Shown piece by piece: positions 33,220 to 35,660 of a DNA stretch of 64,000 nucleotides (position 1 is its first letter; every line of letters starts with the position of its first letter). Origin of the DNA: an uncultured Lachnospiraceae bacterium (GTDB taxonomy: Bacteria > Bacillota > Clostridia > Lachnospirales > Lachnospiraceae); assembly GCA_947089905.1 (NCBI GenBank), contig CAMUMG010000001.1:310001-374000 (forward strand), written 5' to 3'. The translations under genes were made by a program, and so were the position numbers. The notes under the pieces were generated by a model. That model saw nothing but the letters and a program-made list of their open reading frames with translations. It was not told where the DNA came from and made no database searches.

Positions 33220-33543
33220 TTGTACTTTAGATCAGTTTACAAAGAACCACACCTAAAATTCTTTCCATGCTCTCAAATTTGTAATATAATGGACATGTCC
33301 AAAGGGAATTATTATACAAGTGTCTCCATTGAAACTGTCATTACGTCTGCAATCGTATGTATTGAACTGGGACCTATGTTGGAAGCTCACAAATATAATG
33401 AAAAGGTGACACATTGTATGTGTCTTATTCGTGATGATGAAAACTCTCCATATAGGGTATTATTACCATGTGGCATTTGTCAAAAAAGATTACGGTATCA
33501 TTGGACAAAAGCCTACCCAGCTAACTTAGAAATATTTATCTAG
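33220..33543 (+). pseudogene. Decayed cytidine deaminase-like gene
   Basis: The open frame keeps the core of a zinc-dependent cytidine/blasticidin-type deaminase: YYTSVSIETV, the first zinc cysteine with glutamate (VCIELG), KVTHCMCLIRDDENSPY and the second cysteine pair (LPCGICQKRL). RL is followed directly by YHWTKAYPANLE, which in relatives lies about 30 residues further on, so an in-frame internal deletion is inferred. The N-terminus is unrelated sequence after a TTG, and the 3' end overlaps the convergent peptidase gene by 18 bases. Probably non-functional. Confidence 0.6.
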
Positions 33544-35121
33544 CATTTTTTGTGCATATTCTTTTTGGCTTTCAGAATCATCTGTATTTTCTGTAACATC
33601 TTTAAAATAGCTATAAGCCTTTTTCATATCCTTTTCTACCAATTCACCATTTAAATATATATATCCTAACATATTCTTCGCATAGAAATTGCCTAGTTCG
33701 CTTGCTCTTTCATACCATATAACCGCCTTAGGATCTTTCTCTTCATAAAACAAATCAGCTAAATTTATGGCAGCAGTTCGTTTATTACTCTCAGATGCGC
33801 TTTCATTTTCAAAAACTTCCGTAAAATAGACACAGGCTTTTTGGATATCCTTTTCTACAAGTTCACCTTTAAAATAAAAATACCCTAACATATTTTTTGC
33901 ATGAAAATTGCCTAGTTCCTCTGCTTTTTTATACCATATAACTGCTTCAGGATCTTTTTCTTTATAAAATAAATTGCCTAAACTCATCATGGCACGAATA
34001 GATTGAGAAGTAAGTACTCCTATTTTTTCATCTAATTTAATCGCATATTTATAATTAGATATTGCTTGTTGAAGAGGCATATCTTCTATATATCCATTTA
34101 AAACCATATCACCCATTATATTACTGGCATAGGCACTATTTGTTGTTTCTGAAGCCACAACTTTATTATAAAGTTTATAAGCTTTTTGATAATCTTTTTC
34201 GTCTAAATAGCCATAGTAATAATAGTCTGCTATTCTTCTAATAGCATAGTTCGTATAACCTTCTGTTTTCCCAAATTCAACCGCCTTTTGGTAATACTCT
34301 AAAGCTTTTGTATAATCAGGTTCACCACCATATCCATAAAAATAATAATCTGCTAATTTTGTAATATTCGCTAAATTCGACTGAGAAAGCAGATAGTTTT
34401 CTATAGAAGGTAATGTCTCTCCAGAATATTCTTTCCATAAATCAGAAAGCGATTGTCCTGTCAATATCTCAAAGGTTTCATTTTGTATTTTCCCTTCCTG
34501 CATACAGCGGTGTAACTTCATAACAATATCAGTATAATCTTTATCTTCCTCAAGCCATATCAGAAAACCGGCAGTTGTTAAATAGCCAGAATAAAGACTA
34601 CCGCCGTTATATTGTTTTGGTATAAGTGAACGTTTATGTTCCGAATATTCAGCAGCAATATAATCGGCAATTCCTTCTGTAAGCCATGAGAAAGTTTTTG
34701 TATTCTGATATTCTTGTACAATATGTGTTAATTCATGGACAATAAGATCTACTGCATAGCCGTTTAAACGGGAAAAGTTATTTTCTCTAAAAGCAATTCG
34801 ACCATTTCCTATTTCAACTGCGCTAGCACCATCCACAATAAGGTTAGAGTCTATAATAAATGTAATCACAGGACATTCATTAGAATATCCATATTTATCC
34901 CACATTTTTTTAAAAACATCATTAAAAACATTTTTAATAAATTCTTTTTGTTCTGTATTTAAAATATTGTGGGGATCTTTGATGATACACTGTGCATCCG
35001 AAGAATATGTACTACTTTCTGTTTTAGCATATACTATTGTTTTAGCATTTACGGCAGTGGAACTTAGAGCTATCAAACTGGCAACATAGAAACAAAAAAG
35101 TTTTTTAATAAAGTTTTTCAT
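33526..35121 (-). CDS. Secreted BSP-like zinc metallopeptidase with Sel1 repeats
   Basis: 531 residues. Signal peptide about 1-26 ending STAVNA. The peptidase part carries HELTH (His129, Glu130, His133) followed by WLTEGIADYI, matching basic-secretory-protein/gluzincin-like enzymes. From about residue 250 there are Sel1/TPR-type repeats (YYFYGYGGEPDYTKALEYY and others). The last two long repeats are near-duplicates with a 219-base period. A very good AAAGGAGG site precedes the ATG. A secreted or wall-associated role is likely; substrate unknown. Confidence 0.85.
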   Translation of the reverse strand: MKNFIKKLFCFYVASLIALSSTAVNAKTIVYAKTESSTYSSDAQCIIKDPHNILNTEQKEFIKNVFNDVFKKMWDKYGYSNECPVITFIIDSNLIVDGASAVEIGNGRIAFRENNFSRLNGYAVDLIVHELTHIVQEYQNTKTFSWLTEGIADYIAAEYSEHKRSLIPKQYNGGSLYSGYLTTAGFLIWLEEDKDYTDIVMKLHRCMQEGKIQNETFEILTGQSLSDLWKEYSGETLPSIENYLLSQSNLANITKLADYYFYGYGGEPDYTKALEYYQKAVEFGKTEGYTNYAIRRIADYYYYGYLDEKDYQKAYKLYNKVVASETTNSAYASNIMGDMVLNGYIEDMPLQQAISNYKYAIKLDEKIGVLTSQSIRAMMSLGNLFYKEKDPEAVIWYKKAEELGNFHAKNMLGYFYFKGELVEKDIQKACVYFTEVFENESASESNKRTAAINLADLFYEEKDPKAVIWYERASELGNFYAKNMLGYIYLNGELVEKDMKKAYSYFKDVTENTDDSESQKEYAQKMLDKYF

Positions 35122-35258: not shown

Positions 35259-35312
35259 TGTATATAAAATATAAACTTTATTAGTATTATAACATACTGC
35301 ATACAGTATGTT
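35259..35312. repeat. Repeated CATACTG palindromes (operator-like)
   Basis: A perfect inverted repeat AACATACTG-CATA-CAGTATGTT occupies 35291-35312. A related AAACATACTGTAT lies about 30 bases upstream (35261-35273). It sits between the metallopeptidase promoter and the 3' end of the 57-residue gene. It could be a repressor binding site or a transcript hairpin. Confidence 0.6.
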
Positions 35313-35370: not shown

Positions 35371-35544
35371 TTACCAAGGCAGAGGCAATTTTTCTTCTGC
35401 AAGTATTTTTTGAATCCATTCTGCATCTATCGGAAGAAATTGTGGATGAAAAGTTACAATTAAATAGACAATTAAAAATAAAATACAGGCAACAGTAAGT
35501 CGAATTAAAAAATCTTTTAATATAGATTTTGTTTCCTTTTTCAT
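35371..35544 (-). CDS. 57-residue single-pass membrane protein (unlisted small gene)
   Basis: ATG 35544 to TAA 35371. Charged start MKKETKSILKDFLIR, one membrane helix (about residues 14-32, LIRLTVACILFLIVYLIV), then HPQFLPIDAEWIQKILAE and an end LPLPW. GAGG lies 4 bases before the ATG. A different frame over the same DNA gives an uncharged, cysteine/asparagine-rich product that looks like a shadow. Its leader can fold as a pseudoknot. Function unknown. Confidence 0.65.
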   Translation of the reverse strand: MKKETKSILKDFLIRLTVACILFLIVYLIVTFHPQFLPIDAEWIQKILAEEKLPLPW

Positions 35545-35555
35545 TTTTCCTCATT

Positions 35556-35612
35556 TCTGCATGGCTTTTTTGTATATATCAAGTTTGTGGAAGCCATACA
35601 GACACAAACTTG
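35556..35612 (-). ncRNA. Candidate H-type pseudoknot in the leader of the 57-residue gene
   Basis: Minus-strand RNA: stem 1 is CAAGUUUGUG (35612-35603) with CACAAACUUG (35589-35580), 10 perfect pairs. The 13-base loop UCUGUAUGGCUUC (35602-35590) can pair over 12 bases with AAGCCAUGCAGA (35567-35556), with a single G-U. A 12-base A/U linker lies between. The 3' strand of stem 2 ends 3 bases before GAGG and 11 bases before the start codon. The one variant position pairs only on the minus strand (G-U versus A-C), supporting that orientation. Confidence 0.55.
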
Positions 35613-35660
35613 TGATTTGAAAATTTCAATTATGATAATACAAATTTTCTCAGAAAAACA

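Follow-up and report, generated by a model that had tools for sequence, protein, structure and literature searches.

The leader of the 57-residue ORF

The window, meaning the whole analyzed stretch of 64,000 nucleotides, carries on its minus strand an ORF of 57 amino acids (35371–35544) with one hydrophobic, membrane-like stretch and without a Pfam match. No convincing relatives of this ORF were found among 145 genomes; hence, a gene-centered comparison is impossible. Upstream of it, on the same strand, lies a perfect 10-bp hairpin with the arms CAAGTTTGTG (35612–35603) and CACAAACTTG (35589–35580). Its 13-nt loop, TCTGTATGGCTTC, is complementary over 12 bases, one G-U pair included, to the segment AAGCCATGCAGA (35567–35556, minus strand), and just 3′ of this segment follow GAGG (35552–35549) and the ATG (35544). 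These elements underlay the original prediction of a pseudoknot adjoining a ribosome-binding site (RBS), and direct rereading of the sequence confirmed both the complementarity and its placement. Only one site in the window combines a perfect 10-bp hairpin and a loop of 8 to 17 nt with 10 or more complementary bases in the 44 that follow. No such site exists in 30 dinucleotide-preserving shuffles scanned on both strands; each shuffle contains about 5.5 hairpins of 10 bp as such.

The predicted fold consists of stem S1 with 10 bp, loop L1 with 3 nt, stem S2 with 7 bp, loop L2 with 3 nt, and loop L3 with typically 13 to 14 nt, which is a normal H-type geometry. In the window copy, the 5′ arm of S1 is followed by L1 (35600–35602), the 5′ strand of S2, GTATGGC (35593–35599), and L2, TTC (35590–35592). 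The 3′ arm of S1 is then linked by the A-rich L3, ATATATACAAAAAA (35566–35579), to the 3′ strand of S2, GCCATGC (35559–35565); other copies tolerate a small additional hairpin in L3. L1 reads UCU, of which U and C are conserved and the third base is free. This UCN does not covary with the opposing AGA, and in the pseudoknot it would run across S2 on the side of the deep groove. A second helix of 12 bp, as originally predicted, was rejected. It would leave a first loop of zero length, which is sterically implausible for an H-type pseudoknot, and its three outermost pairs show no covariation. The pseudoknot itself stands, with a second helix of 7 bp after a 3-nt loop.

The conserved box AGAAAUGAGG is the putative new Shine–Dalgarno (SD) sequence that the element brings along. 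In the window, it corresponds to AGAAATGAGG (35549–35558), which is identical in 146 of 286 copies and possibly represents an extended SD. Apart from one base, AGAAATGAGG is similar to the complement of the 3′ tail that 16S rRNA usually has in Firmicutes, which ends in ...CCUCCUUUCU, and the AGAAA part of AGAAAUGAGG fits this tail as well. A pattern search for the 16S tail of these genomes gave no match, so that the idea of an extended SD is based on the general Firmicute tail. The predicted SD duplex amounts to −9.9 kcal/mol for the element and to −11.1 kcal/mol for the native SDs at sites lacking it; these energies do not indicate an SD stronger than the native one. From the comparison of copies, the complete unit, here termed cassette, is predicted to span about 75 to 130 nt and to comprise an upstream AT-rich hairpin (P0), the H-type pseudoknot (S1/S2) and the AGAAAUGAGG SD. 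P0 is clear in 101 of 298 copies; the window copy retains a weak remnant, ATTGAAATTTTCAAAT (35615–35630), and no native SD is visible there.

Further downstream, a palindrome, CATACTGTATGCAGTATG (35293–35310), with a half-like sequence, ACAGTATG, close by lies 5′ of a Sel1/BSP-peptidase gene (33526–35121), of which it is possibly the operator.

Copies, covariation and insertion sites

When the leader was searched against its own genome, 15 matches were found on many contigs, nearly all directly 5′ of the start codons of different genes. For the covariance search over related leaders that had been proposed along with the prediction, a model was built that detected about 12 strong and about 10 weaker copies in the own genome and had matches in 77 of 397 Lachnospiraceae genomes, many of them multi-copy. 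Six Lachnospiraceae genomes contain 6 to 35 copies each (E ≤ 1e-6), and the 37 species of the genus of genome G318 contain 0 to 43 (E ≤ 1e-7). In a class-wide sample of 391 genomes, the only two with matches belong to the Lachnospiraceae. Scanning named genomes for a DNA pattern revealed at least 117 stretches; among the matches listed, most bear the label Lachnospiraceae or the name of one of its genera. No plasmid match was found, and the viral sequences contributed one contig. The 14 'phage' records with a cassette are fecal fragments, and several of the five examined carry chromosomal genes, e.g., dnaB; phage or plasmid carriage was rejected on these grounds. The fecal GenBank entries L470–L474 (MT837110, MT836618, MT838238, MT836374, and MT837311), labeled 'Bacteriophage sp.' and bearing the cassette before genes including dnaB, look like fragments of bacterial chromosomes.

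In the first 15 copies, pairing amounted to 97% in S1 and 90% in S2, and compensatory changes were present. A further 90 loci were retrieved with a pattern that fixed part of S1 and CAGAAA and left the variable part of S2 free. Their alignment was fitted to S1 only, and S2 thus constitutes an independent test. The seven pairs of S2 were 97.5% paired in these copies, and 62 both-side changes were observed versus 23.5 ± 3.1 in shuffled and at most 8 in slid alignments; the covariation exceeds 500 shuffles and all slides. Among 298 copies accepted by a parser that retained only those with at least 5/7 pairs in S2, 255 form all seven pairs and 31 form six. In the alignments, 96 to 97% of the S1 cells are paired, again with compensatory changes. 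All six standard pair types are present at one S2 pair. The loop pairs with its 3′ flank, and both helices covary, as in an H-type pseudoknot. Summed by hand over the seven S2 pairs of the 298 copies, 98 G-U cells face 13 A-C cells. Because G-U is far more frequent than A-C, the folding RNA is the sense strand, in agreement with the minus-strand RNA that had been proposed for the window. Strict conservation outside base pairs comprises little beyond UC, AAA, and the SD box.

In 276 of the 298 copies, an ORF starts at the right distance, and in 245 of these, the start codon lies 15 to 17 nt after S2; tandem copies, contig ends, and apparent pseudogenes are among the cases without an ORF start. 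The downstream genes, assigned by eye from sequence, include dnaK, groEL, clpX, rpoZ, alaS, yebC, secE, secG, and rpmJ, as well as pyk, purC, purF, carB, hom, and genes of flagellin, a microcompartment shell protein, transporters, and lipoproteins. Many genes, several of them normally essential, hence appear to be translated through a cassette. They serve many unrelated functions and have no metabolic theme, i.e., not the shared pathway of a riboswitch regulon. On contig 16 of G398, several near-identical cassettes (L073, L196, L266, and L267) precede consecutive genes within a single gene cluster. At L080, a T-box leader (RF00230; 6–233) lies 5′ of a gene that carries a cassette.

Orthologous loci lacking the cassette demonstrate how it is positioned. 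In the genus of G318, the empty site L325 (gcataaaaATGGAGGAGTAGTTATG) has an ordinary SD and spacer at the place where L271 is occupied, and L321 is empty versus the occupied L272. For purC, nearly all of 28 sister loci are empty versus L276, and L309 is also occupied; for pyk, 12 of 13 loci are empty versus L274, and the thirteenth, L323, resembles a decayed copy. Empty sites also exist for hom and carB, and within one genome, the same gene occurs twice, empty at L467 (ctttatgtaaaGGGGGAAAAGTGATG) and occupied at L413. Several cassette-free purC leaders of sister species, namely L293, L297, L300, L307, L308, L310, and L319, have a simple GC hairpin directly 5′ of GGAATGGAGG-ATG; such an unadorned stem in front of the SD may serve a comparable purpose.

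At occupied sites, the native leader extends to just past the native SD, where the cassette begins. An SD-like motif lies just 5′ of P0 in 63 to 70% of the P0-bearing copies versus 10 to 13% further away, and in copies without P0, it is found at background level only. In tandem arrangements (L121, L155, L198, and L205), the second cassette starts just after the SD of the first; those of L121, L155, and L198 are spaced about 95 to 110 nt from each other before one gene. Both insertion flanks are SD-like and non-identical, no inverted repeat joins the element ends by inspection, and divergence blurs the exact boundaries and any target duplication. Being short, non-coding and multi-copy, with both occupied and empty orthologous sites, the cassette resembles a dispersed non-autonomous (MITE-like) element. 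The original view that the leader belongs specifically to the gene of a small membrane protein is not supported, since copies are dispersed before unrelated genes and the sites of sister species are empty. A Y1 transposase (PF01797) is absent from two copy-rich genomes, G251 and G219, and the element adjoins none of ten Y1 loci checked; this enzyme, the one transposase family covered, thus finds no support as the source of mobility. An assignment to REP/RAYT palindromes was likewise dropped, as no Y1 transposase in the genomes and loci checked is flanked by a cassette.

Maintenance and proposed function

Copies with P0 are closer to the consensus in sequence than copies without (identity of S1a 9.44/10 versus 8.19/10), and the pairing is nearly the same with 9.34 versus 9.28 pairs in S1 and 6.86 versus 6.77 in S2. 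P0 similarity is 0.647 within genomes and 0.478 between them (outer flanks: 0.263 versus 0.267). Nine orthologous sites that are shared contain 33 changed pairs, of which 15 are compensatory double changes, 14 are one-sided and still paired, and 4 are broken; before the same gene, S2 reads TACGGC/GCCGTG in G318 versus TGGGGC/GCCCCG in G452. Some shared sites may have arisen through separate insertions upstream of the same gene. Since older copies pair equally well despite their drift and changes at orthologous sites are compensated, the pseudoknot is kept after insertion, unlike P0 and the native SD. This pattern is most simply explained if the retained pseudoknot matters for translation of the downstream gene.

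The feature in the window is probably a copy of a Lachnospiraceae-specific, (formerly) mobile, self-folding RBS cassette that was retained as a translation-initiation leader. As the comparison of sites shows, the cassette is inserted in sense orientation a few nucleotides 3′ of the native SD of a gene; its copies would spread via a transposition-like process. The start codon then adjoins the SD of the cassette, which replaces the native one. Over time, the native SD and P0 decay, with compensatory changes maintaining the pseudoknot. The pseudoknot may pack the upstream part of the cassette into a self-contained fold, the last pair of which lies 6 nt before GAGG. This fold would hold the SD single-stranded and insulated from upstream sequence, and it may set the rate of 30S loading. 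With an SD kept accessible in this way, insertion would be tolerated even before essential genes. Because the cassette precedes normally essential genes, constitutive shut-off is unlikely; presentation and insulation of the SD is the more probable role of the fold. Whether the cassettes in addition represent a new class of mobile elements is evenly balanced. Such a class would target the interval between SD and start codon and restore translation with a pseudoknot-capped SD before dozens of genes per genome, placing these genes under a shared, possibly jointly regulated translation-initiation module.

The same sequence traces would be expected from insulation and from a regulated switch. In an alternative fold of the window copy that lacks S1 and hence the pseudoknot (predicted −17.2 kcal/mol), part of the SD is paired, which leaves room for a switch. 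In a global translational switch, the pseudoknot would control SD access in response to a small molecule, an ion, a general RNA-binding protein, or temperature, which would place a large scattered regulon under one signal. The compensated pairs at orthologous sites, the position of the cassette 15 to 17 nt before the ATG, the existence of tandem copies and the recurrence of cassettes before dnaK, clpX, hom, secE, and abfA in several genera are consistent with such a switch. However, the genes have no common theme, sister-species sites are mostly empty, copy numbers vary widely within one genus, and strict conservation beyond base pairs is sparse, which makes a switch possible yet rather unlikely. 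The preQ1, SAM-II, and similar riboswitches are translational H-type pseudoknots with a short L1 and an A-rich L3 and adjoin the SD. The cassette shares the H-type fold, the short L1, and the A-rich L3 near the SD. In these riboswitches, the SD is part of a helix, whereas that of the cassette lies beyond the helix, and the cassette differs further by its dispersal with empty sites and by lacking a gene theme and an Rfam match. None of 4227 Rfam models matches the window, its close-up (E up to 10), or 20 family members, except for the unrelated T-box at L080, which shows that the search works; the assignment outside the Rfam classes thereby holds. That the element would evidently be a riboswitch is not supported, given the unrelated genes and the ordinary SDs at the empty sites of sister species.

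A purely selfish element, the structures of which are tolerated by the host and serve only a mobility machinery that recognizes single-stranded DNA or folded RNA, would explain the dispersal, the genome-specific amplification, the patchy copy number, and the decay of P0 after insertion. Copies without P0 and native SD, however, retain S1 and S2 pairing with compensation at orthologous sites, and placement is nearly exclusively before start codons, so that this explanation is doubtful. Leader-peptide attenuation, in which a short ORF initiated by the native SD and an NTG in P0 would be translated and thereby remodel the pseudoknot, draws on the 56 of 101 P0-bearing copies with both this NTG and an upstream SD-like motif. 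It is very improbable, as stop positions vary among copies, with lengths of 7 to 49 codons, the two main P0 types use different frames, and an SD before P0 is missing in the window copy. A chance complementarity or a common intrinsic terminator of the divergent gene, conceivable in an AT-rich region with many hairpins, is practically negligible considering the shuffles, the hundreds of covarying copies, the lack of a U-run in AUAUAUAC after S1, and a terminator scan without a match here.

Related repeats and leaders

Bacterial repeats are known to carry promoters, terminators, or in-frame peptides. The bcr1 and related bcr repeats of the Bacillus cereus group are described, in the parts of the source consulted, as short dispersed chromosomal repeats of mobile-element character, often located in UTRs, and some families have a conserved RNA structure (PMC3446304). 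They resemble the cassette in all these respects except for insertion between SD and start codon and a replacement SD, neither of which is described in those parts (PMC3446304). Rickettsia palindromic elements, repeats of about 150 bp, insert in functional parts of genes and, according to the consulted portion of a review, are tolerated like the cassette since the inserted sequence itself provides what is required by the gene (PMC10969869). They lie in-frame within ORFs and encode a peptide, whereas the cassette occupies the ribosome-binding region and provides an RNA fold and an SD (PMC10969869). Within the literature as consulted, the nearest kinds are thus RNA-structured mobile repeats (bcr, PMC3446304) and gene-tolerated repeats (Rickettsia palindromic elements, PMC10969869). 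Some structured mRNAs load on the 30S subunit before unfolding, e.g., a pseudoknot leader studied with ribosomal protein S1, as stated in the consulted part of that work (PMC3858243). Like the cassette, this leader has a structure near the SD that has to be accommodated during initiation, but it belongs to one gene, whereas the cassette is dispersed (PMC3858243).

The words "ribosome" and "Shine" are absent from a 2024 review of prokaryotic MITEs. No description of the cassette was found in the open literature or the passages of RNA-discovery papers covered, and a prior listing under another name is possible. In the parts of the literature examined, a repeat that inserts at the RBS and swaps in a folded RBS is not among the described repeats. 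If the proposed reading is true, translation initiation of many genes of gut Lachnospiraceae, including normally essential ones, uses one shared RNA fold. The cassettes would then allow RBS insulation to be tested in nature and would point to a possible common switch and to an insertion machinery specific for the SD.

The arms of S1 also occur in a different context. In L028 (G008), a tandem array at about 1340–1606 with a unit of about 67 bp contains hairpins with the arms CAAGTTTGTG..CACAAACTTG. These hairpins have a short loop and are devoid of pseudoknot and RBS, and the units are separated by cactgtgtatacc.
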